From assembly GCF_900112415.1 (NCBI RefSeq), contig NZ_FOLV01000003.1:1-64000 (forward strand): a stretch of DNA of 64,000 nucleotides. Direction: 5' to 3'. Below the pieces are notes generated by a model. That model made no database searches. It worked only from the letters and a program-made list of their open reading frames with translations, and was not told where the DNA came from. Below are positions 7,766-50,311 of the stretch, in pieces (within the stretch, counting starts at the first letter, position 1; each line of letters starts with the position of its first letter). Source of the stretch: Bacillus sp. 491mf. GTDB lineage: Bacteria > Bacillota > Bacilli > Bacillales > Bacillaceae_G. Position numbers and translations under genes: made by a program.

Positions 7766-8695
7766 TTACTTGAGAGCGTTAATTGTAATCGTGGCAGTCT
7801 GCGCGATCAGTTCATTATCATAGGTAGCATCCTTTGTATCACGACTGGACAGAATTGCAATGATAATGGGTTTTCTATTCGGTGGCCAAACGATTGCAAT
7901 ATCATTTCGTGTTCCGTAGCTTCCGGCTCCTGATTTATCAGCGACTTCCCAGTCTTTTGGTAATCCAGCGCGGATAAGTTTGTCTCCTGTAGCGTTTCCA
8001 CGCATCCAATCTGTAAGAATTTTACGTTTGTCAGCTGGGAGTACATTTCCAACTGTGAAAGCCTTAAGATCGGTAGCAAGTGCTTTAGCTGTACTTGTAT
8101 CACGGATGTCACCAGGAATAGCTTCGTTTAAATCTGTCTCAAAGCGATCTGCCTGGGTAACTCCATCACCAATCTGTTTGAGCGCTTTTTCAAATCCTTT
8201 AGGCCCGTCTAGTTCCTTAAATAAAAAGTTCCCTGCGGTATTATCACTGTAACGAACGGCAGCTTCTGCAATCTCTCCAAGTGTCATACCGGTATCTACA
8301 TATTTCTCTGTAATGGGTGAATATTCAACTAAATCATCTTTTGTATAAGTGATAACTTCGTTTAATTTGTCAATTGGATTTTGCAGTAGCACTGCTCCTG
8401 CAGCTAAAGCCTTATATGTTGATGCGAAAGCAAACCGTTCATTTTGTTTATAAGAAACTGTTCGATTTGTACCGGTATCAATAGCATAGACACCTAGTCG
8501 AGCGTCGAACTTTTTCTCAAGTTGAGCGAACTCCTGATGAGTCGCATGATTTGTATGTTTGGTTTGCTTTGTTTTTTCTTTTGCTTCCACTTGCAATGGT
8601 TCACCTGTAAAGAGTTTTACACTTGCAAGACTTAAACTTAGTATGCCAACACACATCCCTATTTTTAGCATCCTTGTACTTTTCAAAATGATCAT
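7766..8695 (-). CDS. bla1: Class A beta-lactamase of the B. cereus Bla1 type
   Basis: 309 residues. All class A motifs are present: S-T-Y-K at about 92-95 (catalytic serine), S-D-N at 150-152, the omega-loop ETDLN with Glu186, and K-S-G at 254-256. An N-terminal hydrophobic segment (about 11-30) makes it an exported enzyme that hydrolyses penicillins in the wall space. The sequence closely follows B. cereus beta-lactamase I (FDARLGVYAIDTGTNRTVSY, NDIAIVWPPN). The start is uncertain: ATG 8695 matches the known protein, whereas TTG 8686 has better spacing from GAAAGGA. The gene is divergent from blaR1-blaI across three BlaI-type operators, which implies induction by beta-lactams. Confidence 0.95.
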   Translation of the reverse strand: MIILKSTRMLKIGMCVGILSLSLASVKLFTGEPLQVEAKEKTKQTKHTNHATHQEFAQLEKKFDARLGVYAIDTGTNRTVSYKQNERFAFASTYKALAAGAVLLQNPIDKLNEVITYTKDDLVEYSPITEKYVDTGMTLGEIAEAAVRYSDNTAGNFLFKELDGPKGFEKALKQIGDGVTQADRFETDLNEAIPGDIRDTSTAKALATDLKAFTVGNVLPADKRKILTDWMRGNATGDKLIRAGLPKDWEVADKSGAGSYGTRNDIAIVWPPNRKPIIIAILSSRDTKDATYDNELIAQTATITINALK

Positions 8696-8856
8696 TCCTT
8701 TCACACTTTTAATACTTAAAACAAATGTTAAATTAGATACAATGTATACAATTTGAACACCGGTTTTTACTATTACATGTAAAACCTCCTAATTATTTGA
8801 TTAGACTCTTATGTACGAATTGAAAGAACAACCTTATTCAAGGAGTTTCAAAAGAT

Positions 8857-8902
8857 TACATTTGTAGTCTGATTACATCTGTAGTACAATATTACAGATG
8901 TA
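8857..8902. promoter_or_regulatory. Three BlaI/MecI-type operators
   Basis: Three dyads of the form TACA-N2-TGTA occur at 8857-8866, 8874-8883 and 8893-8902 (inner bases TT, TC and GA). This TACA/TGTA spacing is the core of the bla/mec operators bound by BlaI and MecI. They lie between bla1 and blaR1, so a BlaI dimer array could repress both directions until BlaR1 senses drug. Confidence 0.85.
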
Positions 8903-8992
8903 ATCAAGTGAAGTCAACTCTTTATTTTTCATCATCAAGCTACTATAAATATGCTATATACCTGTTTTTAAAAATTAAAAAATCCAAGAGAG

Positions 8993-10780
8993 TTGGTGTT
9001 GAGAGACATGTTTTTAACTCATTTTATAATTGGCCTATTGGTGTCTTCATTTTCCGTTGTTGTTATTCTACTTACACGAAAATGGTTTGGAAGACAACTA
9101 ACAGCAAAATGGCACTATCATTTGTGGATGTTTCTTTTTATCGCTTTAGCACTTCCATTCATACCTACTCATTTATATAATTTTAGTTCTCTCTTTAGCG
9201 GTGGGAATACATATCAGACTAATGCGCTCAGCCCTAATACAGAAATAACTGGAACTAATATGATGCAGGGTCTACACCTGATACAAGACTTTTCTGTATC
9301 TGTCAATCGGCCGGATCTGTCCTTACTTAATATGGGAGTGATGGGATTATGGATGTCAGGGGTGCTATTGTATACTTTTACTATAGTTCGTGGATGGATT
9401 ACACTTAGAAGGATAAAGAATTATTCTTCTACGTTTTCCAATCAAGAAGTTCTCGTGCTTTTCGAAGAATGCAAGAAAAGACTACAGATTAAAAAATCAA
9501 TAAAGATTGTTATTTCGAAAAAAGTCCAATCTCCAATGATATTCGGACTTTTTCAAACATATATCGTCTTACCTTCTCAGCATGAAAACTGGCTCAACTT
9601 GAAACATTACGAGTATATCTTTCTTCATGAACTGAATCACTATAAAAATAAGGATCTGCTGACAAATTACGTGATATTGTTCTATCAAATCGTTTATTGG
9701 TTTAATCCCCTTGTCTGGCTTGCTTTTAGAGAAATGAGATTAGATCGGGAAATCGCATGTGATACATCTGTTTTACATTTACTAGATGATAATTCATTTA
9801 GTGAATATGGAAATACAATCATTAATTTTTTAGATCTTTCGAAACGGTCAAGTAAGCTACAGTTAGTAACACAAATAAACGGTTCGAAGAGTCAAATCAA
9901 AAAACGAATTGAACAAATTGCTGCCTATAAGCCTGGAGCAAAGAAATCAATAAGAAAAAGCGTCTTTATTTATGTGTTGGCCAGTATCATTTTGACAGTC
10001 CAATTACCTGTCATTTCTGCATTTGCGACGGAGAACGACCGATACTATTTTAATAATGACGGAACAGTTTATGAGGATTTACATCAATTCTTTAAAGGGT
10101 ATGAAGGAAGTTTTGTTTTATATGATCAGAGTGCAAAACAATATCGCATTTATAATGAAGAGAAAAGTGCGTTGCGGGTATCACCTGATTCCACATACAA
10201 AATCTATAGTGCCTTATTTGCACTAGAATCAAATGTGATATCACCCGAAGAATCCACCCTTTCATGGGATGGGACGGAGCAACCCTATGACGCTTGGAAT
10301 ATGGATCAGGATGTCTCATCTGCTTTACAAAAATCTGTAAACTGGTATTTCCAAGAACTAGATCGTAGAACAGGAATTGAAACAATACAATCTAATCTAC
10401 AAGATATAAACTATGGAAACTCCAATGTATCTGGGGGGGTAGGTGAATTCTGGCACGAATCCTCATTAAAAATTTCTCCAGTCGAGCAAGTGCAACTGCT
10501 GCAAGCCTTTTATTATAATCAATTGGGATATAAGGAAGTGAATATCCAAGCTGTGAAAGAAGCACTATTCTTAGAAAAGAATGAAGAAGCTCGCCTATCA
10601 GGAAAAACGGGTACAGGAACAGTGAATGGAAAAAACATCAATGGTTGGTTTATCGGGTATGTAGAGACGAAGAACAATACTTATTTCTTTGCTACCAATA
10701 TACAAAATGAAGATGATGTATCTGGAAGCAAGGCTATAGAAATTACTTTATCAATTTTAAAGGATTTAGGAATCTATTAA
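8993..10780 (+). CDS. blaR1: BlaR1-type beta-lactam sensor and metalloprotease
   Basis: About 595 residues. The N-terminal part has membrane helices and a cytosolic zinc protease domain with HELNH near residues 212-216 and downstream EIACD; the C-terminal extracellular domain is a class D-like penicillin sensor with S-T-Y-K at 400-403 and a KTGTG motif near 537. Acylation of the sensor serine activates the protease, which leads to loss of BlaI and expression of bla genes. The start is unclear: TTG 8993, GTG 8996, TTG 8999 and ATG 9008 are all in frame; TTG 8999 has the best distance from AAGAGAG. blaI follows at once. Confidence 0.92.
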   Translation: MVLRDMFLTHFIIGLLVSSFSVVVILLTRKWFGRQLTAKWHYHLWMFLFIALALPFIPTHLYNFSSLFSGGNTYQTNALSPNTEITGTNMMQGLHLIQDFSVSVNRPDLSLLNMGVMGLWMSGVLLYTFTIVRGWITLRRIKNYSSTFSNQEVLVLFEECKKRLQIKKSIKIVISKKVQSPMIFGLFQTYIVLPSQHENWLNLKHYEYIFLHELNHYKNKDLLTNYVILFYQIVYWFNPLVWLAFREMRLDREIACDTSVLHLLDDNSFSEYGNTIINFLDLSKRSSKLQLVTQINGSKSQIKKRIEQIAAYKPGAKKSIRKSVFIYVLASIILTVQLPVISAFATENDRYYFNNDGTVYEDLHQFFKGYEGSFVLYDQSAKQYRIYNEEKSALRVSPDSTYKIYSALFALESNVISPEESTLSWDGTEQPYDAWNMDQDVSSALQKSVNWYFQELDRRTGIETIQSNLQDINYGNSNVSGGVGEFWHESSLKISPVEQVQLLQAFYYNQLGYKEVNIQAVKEALFLEKNEEARLSGKTGTGTVNGKNINGWFIGYVETKNNTYFFATNIQNEDDVSGSKAIEITLSILKDLGIY

Positions 10781-10800
10781 AGAAAATGGAGGGGATAAAT

Positions 10801-11181
10801 ATGGAGAAAAACATCCCTAGTATATCAGAATCAGAATGGGAAATCATGAACGTGCTTTGGGATAAAGCTCCTCAAACAGCGAATGACATCATACTTTCCT
10901 TACAGGAGAGTACTGATTGGAAACCGAAAACCATACGTACTCTTCTCGATCGGTTAGTTCAAAAAGATGTAGTAGGTGTCAATAAAAATCTAAGAGTTTA
11001 CACCTTTTACCCGCTCTATACACAGGAAGAGTTCCAGCGTGCCGAGACCAAATCATTTATTAAGCGTATCTATGGAGGTACCCTGAAATCCATGCTTGCC
11101 CAATTCATTCAGGAAGATACCCTATCTGATGATGAAATCAATGAACTACGCTTTATTTTAGATAGGAAACCTAAAAAGTAA
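10801..11181 (+). CDS. blaI: BlaI/MecI-family repressor
   Basis: 126 residues with the winged-helix pattern of BlaI/MecI: ISESEWEIMNVLWDKAPQTANDI at the N-terminus, KTIRTLLDRLVQK as the recognition region and a C-terminal dimerisation helix pair. It binds TACA/TGTA dyads as a dimer, and three such dyads lie between bla1 and blaR1. ATG 10801 is preferred because GGAGGGG lies 7 bases upstream; the in-frame ATG at 10786 overlaps that ribosome binding site. It is separated from blaR1 by about 20 bases and ends before a hairpin. Confidence 0.93.
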   Translation: MEKNIPSISESEWEIMNVLWDKAPQTANDIILSLQESTDWKPKTIRTLLDRLVQKDVVGVNKNLRVYTFYPLYTQEEFQRAETKSFIKRIYGGTLKSMLAQFIQEDTLSDDEINELRFILDRKPKK

Positions 11182-11188
11182 TAATATT

Positions 11189-11228
11189 AAAAAAGGCGAT
11201 TTGGAATTTTTTTAAATCGCTTTTTTCG
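11189..11228 (+). terminator. Terminator of blaR1-blaI
   Basis: AAAAAAGGCGATTT pairs with AAATCGCTTTTTT and ends in T residues, just beyond the blaI stop. Confidence 0.8.
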
Positions 11229-12605: not shown

Positions 12606-13955
12606 TTACTTAATTCGTGAAGGGCTAATATGCTCTAGCCATAGAATCCCATCATATTGTTGGTTAGGAATCATGACTTCATCTAGACATCCCCAATACT
12701 GTCCGATAATAGGCATATACATCCAAGAGGTTTCAGGACGATTTTCCTCACCTTTTAAATTTACAAATACTTGCGGATGCTGTGCAGCCTTCAAAATTTC
12801 TTCGACACTATTTGTTTGATGTTTTTCTATTACAGAATAAGGCGTCTTATTATCCGTATCTAAACTACTACCACTATATGCATATAAACCGACTGTGTAC
12901 ATTTGATTTTTCAAATACTGTGGTATCATATCCATCATATTTGGGAATGGGCGTTCGGTTGCGGCTTGAATCATTTTAGAATTTTGTTTTCTAATATGAT
13001 AATTGTGTCCCCACACAATTATTTTTTTATTCTTAAATTGCATCTCGCTTAACCATGCTAAATTCTGTGCCATCCGTTGATCTCGAGTGTAAAATGAGTA
13101 ATCATCTGGATATTTTTCACGTGGAATTTTCTTCTGCTCTTTCACATCGCTTGGCATATATGTTTTAAGCGCATCGATTCGAATCTTGATTGATTTTTCT
13201 AGAAGATTTACATCATAGGATGTTTTAGGTGCTACTTGTTGCAATTCATTTTTATGTTGTTGGATAAACTCTTTTATGTTTTCATATTTGTCTAAAAGGG
13301 GTGCCTGCATTGCTTGAAATTCCTTATAAGAAGAGACAGAACGGTATTTTACGATTTCTTTTTCTGCTTCTACAAGTAATTTACCTACTTCAGGATCCAA
13401 TTTCCCAATCCATTCATTTGCATATGTTGCAAATGTAGCAGTATTGACATTCCAAGGTATTTGTATATCAAATCCTGTTAAAATAAGAGGTGTTCCTTTT
13501 TCTTTTTGTTCTTTTATGTATTGAAATAATTCTTCCACATCTTCTGTAAACCACGGGTTATAAATAGCTTTCTTCATGGCTTGTTCAGCTGTTAAATCAT
13601 CTATATTTTGATACACAGCATTCGCTTCCGCAAAGTTTGATTCAAATGCAATCACATCATAACCCATTTCTTCATGCAAATACTTAATGATACGAACCTT
13701 TGATTGATTCATTTCTGTTGAACCATGAGTAGACTCACCTAGTGAAACAATCCGTTTGCCCTGTAAGATTTGTTTCAAAAATGATAAATCTTCATTCGAG
13801 CTAGCAGTTGGTTCTTGTAATTTAACTGCATGTTCGCGAACCCAACTCTGCCATTTTTGTTGATCTGCAGGCATTTCTTCAGCAGATGCTACTGTCGAAA
13901 ATGTTGTTAGCGCAAATAAAGTAGTTATGAATCCTTTTTTCCATTTTGAAAACAC
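12606..13955 (-). CDS. Secreted erythromycin-esterase-family protein
   Basis: 449 residues with an N-terminal signal peptide (KWKKGF, then hydrophobic FITTLFALTTFSTVASA, cleavage after about 25). The mature part has the erythromycin esterase family blocks: VSLGESTHGSTEM near 70 with the key Glu and His, DVIAFESNFAEAN near 100, ILTGFDIQ near 157, and IIVWGHNYHIRK near 315. Relatives hydrolyse macrolide lactones or act on unknown esters; most Bacillus homologues are not proven resistance enzymes. GTG 13955 is supported by AGGAGGGG five bases upstream. Its export sets it apart from cytosolic EreA/EreB. Confidence 0.85.
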   Translation of the reverse strand: MFSKWKKGFITTLFALTTFSTVASAEEMPADQQKWQSWVREHAVKLQEPTASSNEDLSFLKQILQGKRIVSLGESTHGSTEMNQSKVRIIKYLHEEMGYDVIAFESNFAEANAVYQNIDDLTAEQAMKKAIYNPWFTEDVEELFQYIKEQKEKGTPLILTGFDIQIPWNVNTATFATYANEWIGKLDPEVGKLLVEAEKEIVKYRSVSSYKEFQAMQAPLLDKYENIKEFIQQHKNELQQVAPKTSYDVNLLEKSIKIRIDALKTYMPSDVKEQKKIPREKYPDDYSFYTRDQRMAQNLAWLSEMQFKNKKIIVWGHNYHIRKQNSKMIQAATERPFPNMMDMIPQYLKNQMYTVGLYAYSGSSLDTDNKTPYSVIEKHQTNSVEEILKAAQHPQVFVNLKGEENRPETSWMYMPIIGQYWGCLDEVMIPNQQYDGILWLEHISPSRIK

Positions 13956-14315: not shown

Positions 14316-15314
14316 CTACCAGTTAGCCACTTCAACATTTGTCTTTAGCCACTTTTCCCAAAGGGGGTCCTCTATTTTCAGTAAACTTAATGACGTGCCT
14401 TGCATGTCTAAAGATGTTAGATGGGTTCCGACTTTGACAAATCGAATATCTAATCTTTCAAGTTCACATAAACGACGAATGTCATTGGCGAAGATATACT
14501 GTTCCATTAATGGGGTAGCACCTAAGCCATTAATTAGAATGGCAAACCTGTCTCCTTGTTTCCAGCGGTAAATGCTTTTGAGTTTGTTCATAAGCTCGAT
14601 TGCCAATTTTTCAGAAGAAAATAATGCCTCTTTACGGTATCCTTTTTCTCCGTGGATGCCGACTCCATAAAAAACTTCATTGTCTTGCAAGGTAAAAGAA
14701 ACTTTGCCTTGGATAGGATTGGTTGCTGGAGAGAGGGCGACTCCTAATGTATGCAGATTATGAATAACAGAGTGACCAACGTCTGTTAATTGTTGTAATG
14801 AATAGTTTTCAAGAGCTGCTGCTCCGAGTATTTTATGAACAAAAATCGTTCCAGCTACTCCTCGCCTTCTTTTATTAAAAGAAGCATCATCTTCAATGGA
14901 AACATCGTCATTTACAATTACATGATCAACAAGTCTTCCTTCCTCTTTTGCCAAAGCTTCAGCAGTTAAGAAGTTTTCTACGTCAGCTTTAAAGTTTTTA
15001 ATGATTAAGAGGACACTCTTATCCTTAGGAACAGAGCGGATTGCTGCTAATATTTGTTCTGGTGTAGGAGGAGTGAAGATTTCTCCATTGACTGCTACTG
15101 AAAGCATTCCTTCACCTACATAACCAATATCAGCTGGTTCATGCCCGCTGCCGCCGCCGCTTATGATTACAACGTTTTGTCCAATTTCGGAAAGATCTTT
15201 CTGATAAATAATGTTATGTTTTGCGTTGTAACATATTTTATCGTTATGTTCAAAATAAAAACCATGTAACATATCCTGAACAATATTTTGAACATCATTC
15301 ATGATTTTTTTCAT
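14316..15314 (-). CDS. dhaQ: DhaQ: DhaK-like coactivator of DhaS
   Basis: 332 residues homologous over the full length to the DhaK subunit of dihydroxyacetone kinase. The substrate-binding histidine that forms a hemiaminal with dihydroxyacetone is kept (GVGIHGEKG, His221), as is the GGGSGHEP loop. The second histidine of the DhaK motif GHEPxH, a catalytic residue (His56 of E. coli DhaK), is Asp62 here (GHEPAD), which argues against kinase activity. This and the dhaS neighbour fit DhaQ, known from Lactococcus as a ligand-sensing coactivator of the TetR-type regulator DhaS. It starts 15 bases after dhaS with AAGGTGG before ATG 15314. Confidence 0.85.
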   Translation of the reverse strand: MKKIMNDVQNIVQDMLHGFYFEHNDKICYNAKHNIIYQKDLSEIGQNVVIISGGGSGHEPADIGYVGEGMLSVAVNGEIFTPPTPEQILAAIRSVPKDKSVLLIIKNFKADVENFLTAEALAKEEGRLVDHVIVNDDVSIEDDASFNKRRRGVAGTIFVHKILGAAALENYSLQQLTDVGHSVIHNLHTLGVALSPATNPIQGKVSFTLQDNEVFYGVGIHGEKGYRKEALFSSEKLAIELMNKLKSIYRWKQGDRFAILINGLGATPLMEQYIFANDIRRLCELERLDIRFVKVGTHLTSLDMQGTSLSLLKIEDPLWEKWLKTNVEVANW

Positions 15315-15329
15315 TGTTTTTCCACCTTA

Positions 15330-15899
15330 TCATTTGTTTGCTGATTGCTGGAGTAAAAGTACTAATTGATTGTTTATCATATTTTTCATCATAGAAGACA
15401 TGATAGATGGATCTACAGCGCAGTGGTTTTCAATCCAGTCTTTTATCGTCCCAACAAATCCATGACTATAAAAAGAGGCCAGTGTATCTTTTTTCACTTC
15501 AGAAATAGCTAAATTACAGCCAACTAATAGCTCATCGATAATTTTGATGTATAAGTTTTTCGTATGTTCAAATAGATAGTAATTAAATGAGTTTTGCTCG
15601 ATTACTTTAAATGCATTTTGGTAGAAGTGTTGATTTTGGTGAAAGTAATCAAATAATAAGTCGAAAATATTTTCCCATTTTTCATAATCAAGAAAGTCTA
15701 TAATATTTTCCTTCGTTTCTTCTTTATAAATCCAACCTAACAGTTCAAATTTATCTTTAAAGTGATAATAAAAAGTTTGCCTGCGCATCTGACAAATTAC
15801 CATAATATCACTCACAGATATTTTATGAAAAGGTTCTGTTTCCATTAATTGTTTTAGCGAGTTGGCTATAATTTTTTTGGAAATAATAGAAGAGGTCAT
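15330..15899 (-). CDS. dhaS: DhaS: TetR-family activator of dihydroxyacetone kinase genes
   Basis: 189 residues with a TetR-type N-terminal helix-turn-helix (FHKISVSDIMVICQMRRQTF through YYHFKDKFELLGWI). The C-terminal domain and the following dhaQ gene identify it as DhaS, which in Lactococcus works unusually as an activator when bound by DhaQ plus dihydroxyacetone. AGAAAGGA precedes ATG 15899. A near-perfect match to the reported DhaS inverted repeat lies at 15972-15993, between this gene and the divergent kinase gene. Confidence 0.85.
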   Translation of the reverse strand: MTSSIISKKIIANSLKQLMETEPFHKISVSDIMVICQMRRQTFYYHFKDKFELLGWIYKEETKENIIDFLDYEKWENIFDLLFDYFHQNQHFYQNAFKVIEQNSFNYYLFEHTKNLYIKIIDELLVGCNLAISEVKKDTLASFYSHGFVGTIKDWIENHCAVDPSIMSSMMKNMINNQLVLLLQQSANK

Positions 15900-15971
15900 T
15901 TGAATCCTTTCTACAACTTTATTCTTTTCTAATAATTAACATCCTATCTATAAATAAATAGGGATGTCTTT

Positions 15972-15993
15972 AGACAAATCGTAAATTTTGTCC
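15972..15993. promoter_or_regulatory. DhaS operator
   Basis: On the minus strand the site reads GGACAAAA-N6-ATTTGTCT. The DhaS binding site reported for Lactococcus, as I remember it, is GGACACAT-N6-ATTTGTCC; the spacing is identical and 13 of 16 specified bases agree. Its place upstream of the kinase promoter suits an activator. Confidence 0.75.
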
Positions 15994-15998
15994 GTTTA

Positions 15999-16045
15999 TT
16001 GTAAAACGCTTTCATTTTAATATAGTTAGTAATAATACGCTTTCA
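15999..16045 (+). promoter_or_regulatory. Kinase-gene promoter with two CcpA cre-like boxes
   Basis: TTGTAA (15999-16004) and TATAGT (16021-16026), 16 bases apart, make a plausible sigma-A promoter. TGAAAGCG half-sites occur on the minus strand at 16000-16014 and 16032-16045, overlapping the -35 region and the likely transcription start, as expected for catabolite repression by CcpA. Neither is a perfect cre. Confidence 0.5.
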
Positions 16046-16177
16046 AATATATCATAATTCAGAAGGGAATGTACCGTGGCAGCAATACTCTATGAATAAA
16101 GAAATCTATGAAAGTGTGTATACGAATAAGATAAACAATTTAAGAAAATAGCAAAATGTATAGAGGAGGAGTAATAA

Positions 16178-17935
16178 GTGAAAAAAATTATAAATAAACC
16201 TGAAACTCTCGTTATGGAGATGTGCAATGGAATGGTTATGGCTCATCCGGAGCTGGAATTGTTGAAAAAGTATAAGGTAATGAAGAAAAAAGAAATGGAC
16301 GAAAATAAAGTAACGTTAATTAGCGGTGGCGGTAGTGGACATGAACCGGCACATGCGGGTTTAGTTGGGAAAGGGATGCTGGATGCTGCAGTCTGCGGGG
16401 ATGTGTTTGCTTCACCTTCACAAATACAGGTATATCAAGCGATTAAAGCAACAGCTAGCAAAAAAGGTACGCTGCTCATTATTAAGAATTACAGTGGAGA
16501 TATCATGAACTTTAAAAATGGAGCTCACTTAGCTACTGAGGATGGCATTCAAGTAGAATATGTCCGCGTAGATGATGATATTGCCGTAGAAGATAGTCTG
16601 TATACAGTAGGACGCCGCGGTGTTGCAGGGGTTGTATTCGTACATAAAATAGCCGGTGCAGCCGCAGAAGAAGGTATGGACTTGCTGCAGGTTAAAGCTG
16701 TAGCGGAAAAAGCAGCGGCAAATGTTCGCACAATTGGCCTAGCGCTAACATCCTGTACAGTTCCTGCTAGTGGATCACCTACTTTCAAATTGGGTGAAGA
16801 TGAGATGGAATATGGCGTTGGTATTCATGGAGAGCCGGGCAGAAAACGGGAAAAAATGGCGACTGCAGACGAGTTGGCTTTACGCATGACAAATGACCTT
16901 GTGAAGGATTTACAGTTAGATGGTAATGAGGGTGCTGAAATTGCTGTTTTAGTAAACGGATTTGGTGGTACACCGCTTCAAGAACTTTATTTATTTAACA
17001 ATGCGATTACTAGGGAGTTAAGCGGCAGAAATATACGGATAAATAGAACGTTTGTCGGTAATTACATGACTAGTATTGATATGGCCGGAATTTCTCTAAC
17101 AGTAATGAAGCTGGATGATGAGCTGAAAACGTTGCTATCGAAAGAATGTAATACACCTGCATTTAAGGTAGACGGGCCAGTTGAGAGTGTAGAATACGTT
17201 GCTGTTGAGGAGAAAGAGGAAGAGAAACCAGTTTTCTTTGAGACGGAAACAGCGGAAGAACATGCGATCATCAAGAATGAGGTCATCACATTAGATAACA
17301 TGGTTTATCTTGTAGATAAAATGAGCGAAGTCATTATCAAGAATGAAGTGCCTTTCTGTGAATTGGATACCCATGCAGGTGATGGCGATTTCGGAATGAG
17401 CGTCGCGAAAGGATTCAAGCAATTAAAACGAGAATGGAGTTCGATTTTGAATCAAGAACGTTTACATATAGGGAAATTCCTAGATGCATGTTCTATGGTT
17501 ATTATGGAACATTGCGGCGGAGCATCTGGTCCAATTTGGGGCGGAGCTTTCCGAGCTGCAGCTAAGGCTGTAGAAAACAAAGAGGAATTAACAGTTAAAG
17601 ATTTTGCTGACATGTTGCAAGCTTCACTTATCGGTATTCAGTCTATTGGAGAGCGATCTTTCGGAAGAGGGGCAGAAATAGGTGATAAAACGCTTGTGGA
17701 TGCACTTGCGCCTTGTGTAAATTCTTGGTCAGAAAGTGCGATAACTGGCGTGGACGTTAAGACTGCTTTTGAAAAAGGGGCAGCGGCTGCCGTTAAAGGA
17801 GCGGAATATACGAAAGAAATCGTTGCTCGAATGGGCCGCGCTGGAACAGTTGGTGAAAGAAGCTTAGGTTATCCAGATGCAGGAGCCTACGCTCTAGGGG
17901 TTATATTTACAGAGCTCTCTCGTAGTTTAAAATAA
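16178..17935 (+). CDS. Dihydroxyacetone kinase, fused DhaK and DhaL domains
   Basis: 585 residues. The DhaK domain (about 1-330) has GHEPAH with His59, Asp108 in YSGDIMNF and the substrate-binding His217 in GVGIHGEPG. An acidic linker (about 335-365) leads to a DhaL domain whose nucleotide motif is DTHAGDGDFG (Asp397, 402, 404; the usual His after it is Phe405), with HCGGASGPIWGGAF further on. A K-L fusion is the layout of ATP-dependent kinases, unlike PTS-dependent DhaK/DhaL/DhaM; no dhaM was seen. Product would be dihydroxyacetone phosphate for glycolysis. It is divergent from dhaS-dhaQ with the DhaS site between. RBS GAGGAGGAG before GTG 16178. Confidence 0.88.
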   Translation: MKKIINKPETLVMEMCNGMVMAHPELELLKKYKVMKKKEMDENKVTLISGGGSGHEPAHAGLVGKGMLDAAVCGDVFASPSQIQVYQAIKATASKKGTLLIIKNYSGDIMNFKNGAHLATEDGIQVEYVRVDDDIAVEDSLYTVGRRGVAGVVFVHKIAGAAAEEGMDLLQVKAVAEKAAANVRTIGLALTSCTVPASGSPTFKLGEDEMEYGVGIHGEPGRKREKMATADELALRMTNDLVKDLQLDGNEGAEIAVLVNGFGGTPLQELYLFNNAITRELSGRNIRINRTFVGNYMTSIDMAGISLTVMKLDDELKTLLSKECNTPAFKVDGPVESVEYVAVEEKEEEKPVFFETETAEEHAIIKNEVITLDNMVYLVDKMSEVIIKNEVPFCELDTHAGDGDFGMSVAKGFKQLKREWSSILNQERLHIGKFLDACSMVIMEHCGGASGPIWGGAFRAAAKAVENKEELTVKDFADMLQASLIGIQSIGERSFGRGAEIGDKTLVDALAPCVNSWSESAITGVDVKTAFEKGAAAAVKGAEYTKEIVARMGRAGTVGERSLGYPDAGAYALGVIFTELSRSLK

Positions 17936-17945
17936 TAGCACTACT

Positions 17946-17995
17946 TTAGAAACGTTATCTTTTCTAGATATGACTAGGAAAGATAACGTTTTTTA
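17946..17995 (+). terminator. Terminator of the kinase gene
   Basis: AAACGTTATCTTTTCTAG pairs with CTAGGAAAGATAACGTTT and runs into T residues. Confidence 0.85.
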
Positions 17996-18121
17996 TGTTA
18001 GGGGGTCCCCATATAGTAAAAAATATATGAATAGGTGCCTATATCACTTCACGATAATCCTTTATAAAATGAACTCCCGCTCCATGATTAACAACCAACA
18101 AAGGGAGCTATCTCCAAATTT

Positions 18122-18360
18122 ATTAACATAAAAAAACATATATGTTTGTTAATTTAGAATTTATTGTTAATTATTTATCAATTTCAAAAATACATATTCT
18201 TACATAATATACAAATATATACCTTTACTTTAATTTCCAAGGGAAATATAATTTTCTATGTAATTACATTTTTATGGGATTTTATCGTAAAAATTGGAAA
18301 AAGGGTAGGGGAAACAGAGTTAAACAGTCGGTGTTTGTTAATTTATTAACTTTGTTAAGT
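18122..18360. promoter_or_regulatory. Long AT-rich leader with repeated GTTAAT boxes
   Basis: The 500 bases before the decarboxylase gene hold no convincing gene. Boxes of the form TTGTTAAT or its complement recur at about 18122, 18145, 18164 and 18334, the last being the dyad GTTAATTTATTAAC. They may bind a regulator or simply reflect AT richness. Confidence 0.35.
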
Positions 18361-18439
18361 TTTTTATTCTCCTGTAAGTAATTTAAGTATTTTCATATAA
18401 AGAAATTGAAAATAGATATCTATAAGGAGATGAACACAT

Positions 18440-20092
18440 ATGAAAGATATTTTAGAATTATTCCCAAGTGCTGATGGTAATCCAAAAACACAAGAGCTAT
18501 TTTTGGAATCGATAAAAAGAATAGTTAGCAATCTTGGTCATTTAAAAAATGAAAATCGAGCAACCTTAGGAAATATTGAGGAAAAATCAGTAGAATATTA
18601 CAATGAATTAATTTGTAGCAGTCATATACCAGAAACGGGTATTGGTATCCCTAATGTTATTGAAGAGCTAAACCAATTTATGAACGGACACCCTTATCCG
18701 AATAAATATTATTTATCTAATGCTGTACCTCTTCCGAGCATTCCATCATTACTAGGTACATTGACCATGACACTATTAAATGGTAATGGCGTTTGGGATG
18801 TATATGGTCCTGCAGCAGCAGAAGCAGAAGTAAAAGTTGTGTCTATGCTCTCGAAATTGATTGGTTATGATCCAAATAATAGTGGTGGTTATACAACATG
18901 GGGGGGACAAGGCTGCGTATTTTCAAGTTTACGCTTAGCTATTTCAAAAAGCTTTCCACAAGCAAAAGAACAAGGTGTTCCTCGAAATGTATATTGCTTT
19001 GCTTCTGAGAATGCACATTATAGTTTATTGAAATCGGCGGAGGCAACAGGAATTGGTACAAATAATTTAATTAAAGTAAAAGCTGATCCTTATACAAATT
19101 CTATAGACATAGAAGATTTAGAGAAAAAGATCATAGAAGTTATCGACAAAGGAGGCATCCCTCTTTATATTCTAGCAACTATGGGTACAACAGATACATT
19201 TGCGATTGATAATATAAAGAAAATTAAAGAGGTTGCTGAATTAATAGAAGATCAATACAAATTAAACCCTATTTACATTCACGCTGATTCTGCAATGGGC
19301 GGTTTCTATAGTTTCTTTAATCATTATGACTTTGAACAGAATCCACTATTGTTTGAACCTTTCGTAAGAGATGCCTTGCAACAAATACAAGAACAAATGC
19401 AATACATGTATCTTGCTGATAGTGTATGTTTTGATTTTCATAAATTGGGTCAAACCCCTTATGCTACAAGTATTTGGATTGTTAAAAATCATAATGATTT
19501 GCGCATTATGGATATAGAACAAAATGACACCCCTTATCTTGGTAACAGATCATATGGTAGTTATCATACAGGCTATACATTAGAATGCTCACGGTCTGGA
19601 AATGCTATTCCAATGTACGTGAATTTACTAGCATTTGGCGTGGAAGGATATCAAAAATTATTAGCAAATTATGTTCGAGTAAATCTTTTATTTAGAAAAA
19701 AATTAAGAACAGCTTTACCTCAAGTAGCCGTAACGAATGATTACACGTATGGTCCAATTACGACATTTCGTTTCTATATGCATGGCGATGGTGAAGAGAA
19801 TTGGAATGAAGAAAGAACAGGAAAATCAACGCAAGAAACTATAGAGGAAACAAACAAATTAAATATTGAAATATTTAATCACCTAGGAAAAAATCGAGAT
19901 CAGATCTTTTTAGGCGATACAACTCGTTCTTGTGTAGTTAACGTTATAAATGGAAGTGAACGCTATCCAATTTCAACTATTAAGTTTTTCTCTATATCCC
20001 CATATACAACAGTTGAATGTTTAGATGAGATTGTGGCATTTATTAAAAAACATGTTCTTATTGTAACGAATAATATCTATGCTTGTGTTTAA
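18440..20092 (+). CDS. PLP-dependent group II amino acid decarboxylase
   Basis: 550 residues of the fold-type I group II decarboxylase family (glutamate, tyrosine, aromatic amino acids). Visible landmarks are WGGQGCVFSSLRLA (about 154-167, phosphate-binding region), His193 in ENAHYS that would stack on the cofactor, Asp283 in HADSAMGG that pairs with the pyridine nitrogen, and the Schiff-base Lys335 in FDFHKLG. It converts an amino acid to its amine and CO2; the substrate cannot be read reliably. RBS AAGGAGATGAACAC before ATG. An N-acyltransferase gene of arylalkylamine type follows 117 bases downstream, which hints at an aromatic amine product. Codon use is AT-rich like its neighbours. Confidence 0.85.
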   Translation: MKDILELFPSADGNPKTQELFLESIKRIVSNLGHLKNENRATLGNIEEKSVEYYNELICSSHIPETGIGIPNVIEELNQFMNGHPYPNKYYLSNAVPLPSIPSLLGTLTMTLLNGNGVWDVYGPAAAEAEVKVVSMLSKLIGYDPNNSGGYTTWGGQGCVFSSLRLAISKSFPQAKEQGVPRNVYCFASENAHYSLLKSAEATGIGTNNLIKVKADPYTNSIDIEDLEKKIIEVIDKGGIPLYILATMGTTDTFAIDNIKKIKEVAELIEDQYKLNPIYIHADSAMGGFYSFFNHYDFEQNPLLFEPFVRDALQQIQEQMQYMYLADSVCFDFHKLGQTPYATSIWIVKNHNDLRIMDIEQNDTPYLGNRSYGSYHTGYTLECSRSGNAIPMYVNLLAFGVEGYQKLLANYVRVNLLFRKKLRTALPQVAVTNDYTYGPITTFRFYMHGDGEENWNEERTGKSTQETIEETNKLNIEIFNHLGKNRDQIFLGDTTRSCVVNVINGSERYPISTIKFFSISPYTTVECLDEIVAFIKKHVLIVTNNIYACV

Positions 20093-20209
20093 TAAATTCA
20101 TATATTATTGATTTAATATTCAAGGTTTAGTTCATTTTTCATTAAGAAATATCACTAATATCTTTATAAACATACCTAATTTAATTGTCTATGAAAAGAG
20201 GAATAATAG

Positions 20210-20857
20210 ATGAACATAGAAATACTAGGAACTCAACATATTAAAGATGCAGCTACCTTAATTGCACAATCTTTCGTAAATGGTGAACCCCTTGTGAGTG
20301 GTTTGCAAATTCCTTTCGCTTCTTTTAATAAAATGTGTGAAGAAATGGTAAGTCAAGCCGTTTCTCAATCTATGTCATTTGTAGCAATGGAAAATTTCCA
20401 AATGATAGGCGTTCTCTTAGTAAGAAAAGCCAATCAACCACTTATAGATAAAGAAAAAGCAAACGAAATATGTCCTCAAATGGGCTCGATTTTTCAACTA
20501 TTAGATACATTAGAAGTAAACTCAATAGAATTCTCCCATCTACATAAAGAAAATTTAGTTTACCTAGATATGGGAGCTTGTCACCCAGATTGGATGGGGA
20601 ACGGCGTAGTCACTGATCTTCTTTCACATGCAATGCAAGAAATAGCTCTAAAACGAAATTTTGATATAGTTGCTGCTTGTACAAATAAAATTTCTCAACA
20701 AGTTCTCAAAAAACGATATAAACCTGTTCAGATTAACGAAATTGTATATAGTGACTTTCTTTATCAAGGTATGTATCCATTTTCACACATAACATCTTCT
20801 TTAACAGCTCAGTTGTTATATATACCTCAATCACAATTAGTAATTAAGGCTATTTAA
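20210..20857 (+). CDS. Arylalkylamine N-acyltransferase-like GNAT protein
   Basis: 215 residues. The order of segments SFVNGEPL (about 23-30), MCEEMVSQAV, MSFVAMENFQMIGVLLVRK, YLDMGACHPDWMGNGVVTDLL (CoA loop, degenerate, about 120-140) and AACTNKISQQVLKKR matches insect-type arylalkylamine N-acetyltransferases, where the N-terminal EPL and the beta-4 Asp shape the amine site. The usual R/QxxGxG CoA loop is reduced to DWMGNG. If it acts on the product of the preceding decarboxylase it would cap an amine as an amide. RBS AAGAGGAATAATAG before ATG 20210. Assignment to the superfamily is firm, to the AANAT type probable. Confidence 0.75.
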   Translation: MNIEILGTQHIKDAATLIAQSFVNGEPLVSGLQIPFASFNKMCEEMVSQAVSQSMSFVAMENFQMIGVLLVRKANQPLIDKEKANEICPQMGSIFQLLDTLEVNSIEFSHLHKENLVYLDMGACHPDWMGNGVVTDLLSHAMQEIALKRNFDIVAACTNKISQQVLKKRYKPVQINEIVYSDFLYQGMYPFSHITSSLTAQLLYIPQSQLVIKAI

Positions 20858-20968
20858 AATATATAGAGGCCAACACATATTGAAAGATTTGGGTGTGAAT
20901 GCCACTGTTTAATAAAATGGAACAAAAATACAGTGTAAGTAAAGGTTTATAAAATATTATAGGAATTA

Positions 20969-21008
20969 AAAAAGCCAGACATCCAATTCAGGATATCTGG
21001 CTTGATTT
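20969..21008 (+). terminator. Terminator after the decarboxylase/acyltransferase pair
   Basis: AAGCCAGACATCC pairs with GGATATCTGGCTT and is followed by GATTT. It is 110 bases beyond the acyltransferase stop. Confidence 0.65.
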
Positions 21009-43238: not shown

Positions 43239-43355
43239 TGATTCTATGAGATGTTACAAATACATTTTCATATCTTTTGTAGGAAATCAAAGTATTGTAG
43301 AGAATATTTTCATGTTGGGGAGCAAGATGACATTTCAATTAGAGGAGAATTGTAC

Positions 43356-44189
43356 ATGATAAGGGAATGTAAGTTTGAAGATTTAGAGCAGCTTATGAAA
43401 ATGAGTAGTATGGAAGTAATAGATTATGATTTGAATCATATGATGAATATTTTTAAGGACGCTAAAAGTTTTTTAGTATGGGATGAATTAGGAGTAAAAG
43501 GCTTCGCTTATGTAATTGTAAGAAATGAAGAGAAAAGAGAGTGGGATGTCCAAGTTTATGTAGATCTAAAGGAAAGAAGAAAAGGAATCGGTACGTTACT
43601 TCATCGAGAAATTTATAATATTGTAGAAAGAGAAAATCCGAGTGTTTTAGTTACAGAAGTGAGAGTGGATAAGGAAAATCCAGCTGTTTTTTACGAAAGA
43701 ATGGGGTATAAAAAGTGGTTTGGATCACCAAGTATGTGTTATACGGGAGGAGTTCAACCAGATGTCGATATTGAATTTATTCCGTATGAAGATAAGTTTT
43801 ACGGACAATATGCTGAATGCAGGGCAGAATGTTTTTATGATATAGCTGTGAAAAATGATTTTAAGCCCTATGTAATCCCGCTAAGTGAAAAAGATAAAAA
43901 TGCGTTATCTAAAAGGCCGATATATGTAACGTTACATAATGAGCAACTTGTTGGAGCAGTTACTGTTGAGGATGGACATTTAGATCATATTATGGTTTCC
44001 CCGGCATATCAGGGGAAGGGATATGGTAAGAAAATTACGCAGTTTGCGATGAATAAAGCATTAAGTAAAGGGGCTACTTCTGTTCAACTTTGTTATATAG
44101 AAGGGAATAGTAAGGCGGAGAATTTGTATCAATTGTTAGGGTTTGAAACGGTTCAGATTATGCATGTGTATAGGAAATTTATGGAGTAA
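43356..44189 (+). CDS. Two-domain GNAT acetyltransferase
   Basis: 277 residues holding two GNAT units. In the first (about 1-130) the CoA loop is VYVDLKERRKGIGTLLHREI; in the second (about 145-277) it is IMVSPAYQGKGYGKKITQFA, with NSKAENLYQLLGFETVQ at the end. Such tandem proteins (MshD-like layout) usually keep one active domain. ATG 43356 follows TTAGAGGAGAATTGTAC; an extension to 43251 would lack a site. Acceptor unknown. Confidence 0.85.
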   Translation: MIRECKFEDLEQLMKMSSMEVIDYDLNHMMNIFKDAKSFLVWDELGVKGFAYVIVRNEEKREWDVQVYVDLKERRKGIGTLLHREIYNIVERENPSVLVTEVRVDKENPAVFYERMGYKKWFGSPSMCYTGGVQPDVDIEFIPYEDKFYGQYAECRAECFYDIAVKNDFKPYVIPLSEKDKNALSKRPIYVTLHNEQLVGAVTVEDGHLDHIMVSPAYQGKGYGKKITQFAMNKALSKGATSVQLCYIEGNSKAENLYQLLGFETVQIMHVYRKFME

Positions 44190-49948: not shown

Positions 49949-50311
49949 TTACGCTTTATCAGGAACCGCTTGTTGTAATTTTTCAATTGATTTTTGAATG
50001 TTTTCAATTTCTTGTTCAATGTGGCGCTTATTTTGAGAAATATCTTGTCTCCATGTTGATAATGTTTCGTGCATATCATCTTTTAATTCTTGAATGACTT
50101 CTTTTCCTTCAGAAGCTGTTTCAACAATTTGTCGACTTAGTAATTTTGTATCTGCTGTAATATCAGCTAATGTTTTTTTTATATCATTTCCTTTTTCTTT
50201 TAACTTATTGCGCATATCTCTTCCAGATGAAGGAGTAGAAAAGAGTACAGCAAGTCCAGCGACAGCTCCGCCGCAAATGATGCCAGTTAGAAAGGATTTT
50301 GATTTTGACAT
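49949..50311 (-). CDS. yhaH: YhaH-like YtxH-domain protein
   Basis: 120 residues: a single membrane helix (SFLTGIICGGAVAGLAVLFS, about 6-25) and a typical YtxH motif STPSSGRDMRNKLKEKG, followed by a long coiled-coil rich in K, E and Q. YtxH-domain proteins are stress-associated membrane-anchored coiled coils. Ribosome binding site AAGGAGGCACTTTTT lies before ATG 50311. Order hpr-yhaH as in B. subtilis. Confidence 0.88.
   Translation of the reverse strand: MSKSKSFLTGIICGGAVAGLAVLFSTPSSGRDMRNKLKEKGNDIKKTLADITADTKLLSRQIVETASEGKEVIQELKDDMHETLSTWRQDISQNKRHIEQEIENIQKSIEKLQQAVPDKA

Follow-up and report, generated by a model that had tools for sequence, protein, structure and literature searches.

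Two-step conversion of an amino acid into a capped amine, by decarboxylation and subsequent N-acetylation, has been achieved in a bacterium by engineering. A tyramine-overproducing Corynebacterium equipped with tdcLb and the silkworm arylalkylamine N-acetyltransferase (AANAT) forms N-acetyltyramine (PMC13281258), and the two-step chemistry therefore works when engineered. Going by the title of a study in the references of PMC6935581 (Bode 2017), natural bacterial phenylethylamides and tryptamides are represented by the simple amides of Xenorhabdus doucetiae. Among the literature matches listed, a natural gene pair consisting of a decarboxylase and an acyltransferase was not recognised from titles or the beginnings of abstracts. 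The engineered pathway has the same two-step logic as the one proposed below, but it is artificial, and tdcLb, which we take to encode a tyrosine decarboxylase, presumably belongs to a different family from the decarboxylase described here. The insect enzymes related to the second step (iAANATs) comprise, among others, dopamine N-acetyltransferase, aaNAT2 and agmatine N-acetyltransferase. In addition, PMC7019647 reports a polyamine acetyltransferase of the chlorovirus PBCV-1.

The locus studied here lies in a 64-kb stretch of DNA from Bacillus sp. 491mf (the window) and consists of a group II PLP decarboxylase gene and a GNAT gene separated by 117 bases on the same strand (Table 1). Our best single reading, which we hold tentatively, is that the two genes constitute a unit for making and acylating an amine. 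An amino acid would be decarboxylated by the first enzyme; the resulting amine would then receive an acyl group from CoA, most likely an acetyl group, through the action of the GNAT, which would be translated from the same message. If the two reactions are sequential, the pair would be a natural bacterial counterpart of the route engineered with an insect enzyme and would offer a compact source of acyl amines that is open to testing. This reading is favoured because the decarboxylase is complete, the GNAT matches the insect profile, the gap shows no terminator-like site, low GC3 is common to both genes and an engineered precedent exists.

Table 1. Features of the decarboxylase-GNAT locus (window positions).
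Feature	Position	Strand	Basis
20-pair hairpin with T-rich 3′ side, 3′ of the dihydroxyacetone kinase gene	17948..17993	+	fold, inverted repeat
Six GTTAAT/ATTAAC boxes	18087, 18122, 18148, 18166, 18337, 18345 (18087..18350)		shuffle test
Promoter-like TTTACT-17-TATAAT	18224..18252	+	10/12 consensus score; kept in L002
Perfect 12-base palindrome ATGTAATTACAT, candidate operator	18258..18269		just 3′ of the -10 hexamer
AAGGAG, ribosome-binding site of the decarboxylase gene	18424..18429	+	sequence reading
PLP decarboxylase gene, group II, 550 aa	18440..20092	+	PF00282 112 bits, trees
AAGAGGA, ribosome-binding site of the GNAT gene	20196..20202	+	sequence reading
GNAT gene, insect arylalkylamine N-acyltransferase kind, 215 aa	20210..20857	+	profile searches
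Hairpin 3′ of the GNAT gene, right border of the pair	20962..21009		fold

The layout described by the sequence-only reading, a GNAT gene 117 bases further on, on the same strand and behind a terminator-free gap, was recovered by open reading frames, pattern scan and fold alike. The pattern scan, applied to both strands of the gap, gave no terminator-like site, and 173 of 200 shuffles folded at least as well as the gap itself (z +1.0). The flanks behaved differently from shuffled sequences. On the left, the fold of positions 17940-18000 amounted to -24.8 kcal/mol (z -7.3; 0 of 200 shuffles equal), and this hairpin, which is absent from the terminator-like sites given by the pattern scan, is probably a terminator closing off the pair on that side. 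The right hairpin folded with -20.3 kcal/mol (z -5.3; 0 of 200 shuffles equal) and was rated terminator-like by the pattern scan on the minus strand only. Judged from its sequence, the arrangement would allow a single transcript covering both genes. The same strand and the gap without a terminator-like site, together with the matching chemistries of the two families, argue against a competing and somewhat unlikely explanation, namely that the genes are neighbours by chance. In that case the decarboxylase would serve on its own to export an amine or to consume protons, in conjunction with an antiporter encoded elsewhere, and the GNAT would independently detoxify polyamines or foreign amines. 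The two-gene unit is ranked ahead of this explanation. A search of Rfam (E up to 1) for an RNA element in the unit gave only a sub-threshold match to RAGATH-25 (19.7 bits against a gathering threshold of 49) at 20948-20995, 3′ of the GNAT gene, and the candidate was rejected.

The decarboxylase scored 112 bits with Pfam family PF00282 (Pyridoxal_deC; cut-off 27), and its His193, Asp283 and Lys335 are matched by the same residue in each of the 23 decarboxylase rows that were aligned, which bears out its initial description as a complete group II PLP enzyme. No NCBIfam equivalog came near its cut-off. The tyrosine decarboxylase models TIGR03811 and TIGR03812 scored 57 bits (cut-off 905) and 68 bits (cut-off 299), while the models for glutamate, diaminobutyrate, aspartate (PanP) and histidine decarboxylases gave 54, 91, 74 and 57 bits against cut-offs of 380, 900, 606 and 305, respectively. 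Tyrosine decarboxylase (TyrDC, MfnA) was rejected as a family name on these scores and on a 100/99 split that separates the protein from the two tyrosine rows; the histidine, diaminobutyrate, aspartate and glutamate names were rejected on scores far below cut-off and on the trees. This rejection concerns naming only and says nothing about activity toward tyrosine or those other amino acids.

Two trees were calculated, the first from 20 rows and the second from 23. Both were midpoint-rooted, so that the decarboxylase group they contain, with 11 rows in the first and 15 in the second, is a split and not a rooted clade. In both trees this group was set apart from the tyrosine, diaminobutyrate and PanP decarboxylases by the 100/99 split, in a comparison made without an animal- or plant-type aromatic decarboxylase and without an E. 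coli-type glutamate decarboxylase. The long-branched histidine decarboxylase row L020 was part of the 20-row tree and was omitted from the 23-row tree; row L021 is an annotated piece of 420 residues. All 15 group rows carry Ser at position 344, where seven of the eight outside rows have Gly and one has Thr. Pro at position 340 is likewise present in 15 of 15 group rows, but it also occurs in six of the eight others. By these alignments and trees, the decarboxylase is placed in a group separate from the named families.

Its nearest relative, with 78.5% identity by tblastn, was found in a record named Klebsiella grimontii pNY3A (L002), followed by a protein of a Niallia taxi megaplasmid (L003) with 54.9%, while the remaining group members share 19-26% identity over aligned columns. 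The L002 record also encodes a Spo0E-family aspartyl-phosphate phosphatase and has a Bacillus-like composition, so that it is perhaps misassigned to K. grimontii. The decarboxylase gene of L002 has a broken frame. When 84,980 species genomes were screened for six exact 8-residue patterns of the decarboxylase, a design that reaches close relatives only, no close decarboxylase was detected, the sole match being a 24% identical actinobacterial decarboxylase of an Acidimicrobiaceae MAG. As L002 contains two of the six patterns (by eye), a relative as close as L002 should have been detected, and the outcome suggests that close relatives are rare.

Repeated GTTAAT boxes had been noticed in the leader of the decarboxylase gene, and counting substantiated them. 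The 504-base leader contains six GTTAAT/ATTAAC boxes compared to a shuffle mean of 0.98, and this number turned up in 2 of 2000 dinucleotide shuffles; no segment of about 500 bases taken across the 64 kb in 10-base steps exceeds it. The boxes at 18337 and 18345 form GTTAAT-TT-ATTAAC. One box was found in the 504 bases 5′ of the L002 gene and none in 656 bases of L003. Promoter-like sites scoring 10/12 are as frequent in the region as expected (19 versus 19.3), and L002 keeps both hexamers and the spacing of the site listed in Table 1. The palindrome ATGTAATTACAT that follows is identical in L002, where it lies within a 29-base stretch at 93%. It is the only match in the window at one mismatch or fewer, and at least one match occurred in 45 of 100 window shuffles, so that its weight comes from conservation at the same place in L002 and not from rarity. 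It may function as an operator. Since L002 has promoter and palindrome without a GNAT, the conserved control region goes with the decarboxylase, which would fit the GNAT having joined it later. On this view, suggested by a single relative, L002, that has promoter and decarboxylase and lacks the GNAT, the decarboxylase gene and its promoter would be of older date, and the acyltransferase would have been recruited in this lineage. A promoter-like site and palindrome shared with a GNAT-less record also speak for chance adjacency.

Base composition sets the pair apart from its surroundings. GC3 is 0.207 for the decarboxylase gene and 0.204 for the GNAT gene, the third and second lowest values among all 63 window ORFs of at least 100 aa, and the second and first lowest in a hand-picked set of 50 ORFs; the ranking was also run on 56 ORFs. 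The sole ORF with a lower value (49949-50311) is doubtful and overlaps another ORF, and the genes adjoining the pair have values of 0.336 and 0.291. At the level of composition, this suggests that decarboxylase and GNAT may have been acquired together, and low GC3 in both genes speaks against chance neighbours. On the other hand, synonymous codon likelihood ranks the pair 46 and 40 of 50 (1 being the worst) and marks neither gene as foreign to the window, which counts against the unit. In L002, nine other genes have GC3 values of 0.13-0.28. In the Niallia megaplasmid (L003, 9995-13319), GC3 is 0.26 for the decarboxylase and 0.25 for a chemotaxis receptor compared to 0.32-0.41 in seven other genes.

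At a threshold of 1e-5, the window decarboxylase matched 257 plasmid records, and the decarboxylases of L003 and L006 matched 283 and 183, respectively. The 22 decarboxylase-bearing records whose loci were examined all come from the plasmid collection, and plasmid location is therefore uninformative about the group; the Aeromonas and Proteus records of the collection measure 4.9 and 4.1 Mb, which is chromosome size. Neighbourhoods of 14 group members from other records were inspected, eleven by annotation table (L002, L006, L007, L008, L009, L012, L021, L022, L023, L024 and L025) and three by eye from ORF lists (L003, ORFs from 80 aa; L010 and L011, ORFs from 150 aa). In this plasmid-collection sample, a GNAT beside the decarboxylase was found in 0 of 14 members, and the co-occurrence that the sequence-only reading had proposed to search for was not seen; since genes are missing from the plasmid annotation tables, a neighbour that is short or unlisted may have escaped notice beside these decarboxylases. 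GadC/amino-acid permeases adjoin the decarboxylase in four members (L006, L007, L009 and L021, from E. albertii, Plesiomonas, Polymorphobacter and Sphingomonas records), and a PLP-dependent aminotransferase gene follows it directly in three (L012, L022 and L023, from Melissococcus, Brevibacillus and Enterobacter plasmid records). The adjacent gene codes for a long-chain acyl-CoA ligase in the case of L002, and L003 has a gene for a methyl-accepting chemotaxis protein in this place, while no obvious partner gene was seen in the remaining five of the 14. The members linked to permeases or aminotransferases belong to the same 15-row group (100/99) and share Ser344 with the window decarboxylase, but they differ in sequence (19-26% identity) and in their partner genes. 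Orthologues of both genes were not encountered together in any other genome, and the DNA of the pair had no match in E. coli genomes.

In this sample, the linkage of decarboxylase and GNAT is not conserved, and the decarboxylase changes partners. Such partner swapping is a more interesting pattern than the pair itself, which points to an unassigned decarboxylase group whose neighbours vary by host. These neighbourhoods, with no GNAT and four permeases next to the decarboxylase, favour chance adjacency, as does the annotation of a Melissococcus member (H28) as glutamate decarboxylase, which is an annotation only. The lack of a GNAT in the two nearest relatives (78% and 55%) likewise weighs against the unit. 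GNATs are common in bacteria and another one is encoded at 43251-44189 of the window, so that the probability of chance adjacency is not negligible. A broader and rather doubtful idea is that a mobile decarboxylase lineage provides an interchangeable amine-making module whose partner differs among bacteria: an antiporter in some, an aminotransferase in others and, in this window, an insect-type N-acyltransferase. If so, the same first step would supply amines for export, for further conversion or for capping, the capped product acting on other cells.

The window GNAT remained below the Pfam cut-off (13.7 bits versus 20.7) and had no match in NCBIfam. Used alone, it reached one solved structure with E below 1, PBCV-1 A654L (3qb8; E 0.0058), which we take to be the polyamine acetyltransferase of that virus. 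No plasmid protein matched at 1e-5, and at E up to 10 a single GNAT was obtained, that of the Sarcina plasmid p3 (L005; E 0.02), which is 23% identical over 163 residues (single-comparison E 8e-10). No match was found in phages, and viral contigs turned up no relative, whether one of the two proteins of the pair or an alignment served as query. The Sarcina protein alone retrieved insect aaNAT2 (4fd5) with E 4.2e-12, and a two-row profile of both bacterial proteins retrieved 4fd5 (3.4e-15), A654L (1e-13) and 6v3t (1.3e-4). As the two-row profile leans on the Sarcina protein, a separate profile was built from two insect segments alone and used to score 689 stop-to-stop ORFs of at least 80 aa from the window and the loci then examined. 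It ranked the Sarcina GNAT first (5.4e-13) and the window GNAT second (1.7e-4), ahead of the next ORF at 0.96, whereas the second window GNAT ORF gave no match at E 10 or better. By tblastn, the window and Sarcina GNATs found only themselves and each other in 26 records, apart from a match in L022 (6907-7167, E 0.02) that lies inside an annotated DMT transporter and was dismissed as chance. The Sarcina gene (L005, 3989-4600) is flanked by a replication gene and a pilin-like gene; no decarboxylase is annotated within 4 kb of it, which also counts against the unit.

The profile match to the insect enzymes covers most of the window GNAT. Of the DEPLN motif, the protein has GEPLV at positions 25-29, in which Glu26, Pro27 and Leu28 align and the outer Asp and Asn are lost, Gly replacing Asp46. 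The positions of Ser182 and Ser186 are occupied by Thr158 and Ser162, both of which provide a hydroxyl; Thr at the former position also occurs in the Sarcina protein, 4fd5 and A654L. Catalytic roles of these residues in the fly enzyme are described in PMC7427786 and PMC6070697. A long stretch is present at the site of the helical β3-β4 insert, and its length fits in the alignment, from which the strand limits were deduced; the AlphaFold model of the GNAT has a pLDDT of 31. The window protein is bacterial and distant from the insect enzymes, and its CoA segment reads Asp-Trp-Met-Gly-Asn-Gly, where the usual motif starts with Arg or Gln. On the strength of the insect-only profile (second of 689 ORFs) and the retained Glu-Pro-Leu, the window GNAT belongs, as far as profiles and alignments can place it, with the insect arylalkylamine N-acyltransferases, in agreement with its first description. 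The window and Sarcina genes would thus be two bacterial relatives of a family whose enzymes have been investigated chiefly in insects.

The insect-type label leaves the substrate unfixed, since the insect members include an enzyme for agmatine and polyamines, as described in PMC5647378. A specifically aromatic substrate, as first proposed, is therefore unsupported, the more so as the decarboxylase falls outside the tyrosine rows, and a diamine or another non-aromatic amine is as likely as an aromatic one. In a narrower and, taken singly, improbable version of the unit, a basic or acidic amino acid would be the substrate of the decarboxylase, and the GNAT would resemble A654L or insect agmatine N-acetyltransferase, so that an acetylated polyamine or diamine would be formed instead of an aromatic N-acyl amine. 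We consider this version no less likely than the aromatic one. It agrees with the insect agmatine and polyamine enzyme, with the position of the decarboxylase in the trees and with A654L being the only structure reached by the window GNAT alone; A654L shares EP, CTN..S and GxG segments with the window GNAT, but it is an algal-virus protein with a borderline score. The profile search, however, places insect aaNAT2 first, and the catalytic motif is common to both uses. For the amine-acylating unit in general, the initial interpretation thus stands with respect to both enzyme classes, the insect-type GNAT and the one-transcript layout, and falls with respect to a conserved neighbourhood and a specifically aromatic substrate.

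Upstream of the pair, a DhaK-like gene (14316-15314; resemblance by eye) and a gene for a TetR_C_8 regulator face away from a DAK1-DAK2 kinase gene. This region (14316-17935) resembles a dha operon accompanied by an activator pair of its own, for which DhaQ/DhaS presumably offers a parallel. The window also contains ecsAB-like genes and a PPIC-type PrsA-like gene, and its gene content together with the few DNA matches suggests that it is a piece of chromosome from a relative of Bacillus. At 7766-11181, a class A β-lactamase gene is divergent from blaR1 (PF05569, PF00905) and the following ORF (10786-11181), and positions 8777-11193 share 93% identity with the blaR1-blaI genes on a Peribacillus plasmid. 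An erythromycin esterase family gene (PF05139) is located near this locus at 12606-13955.
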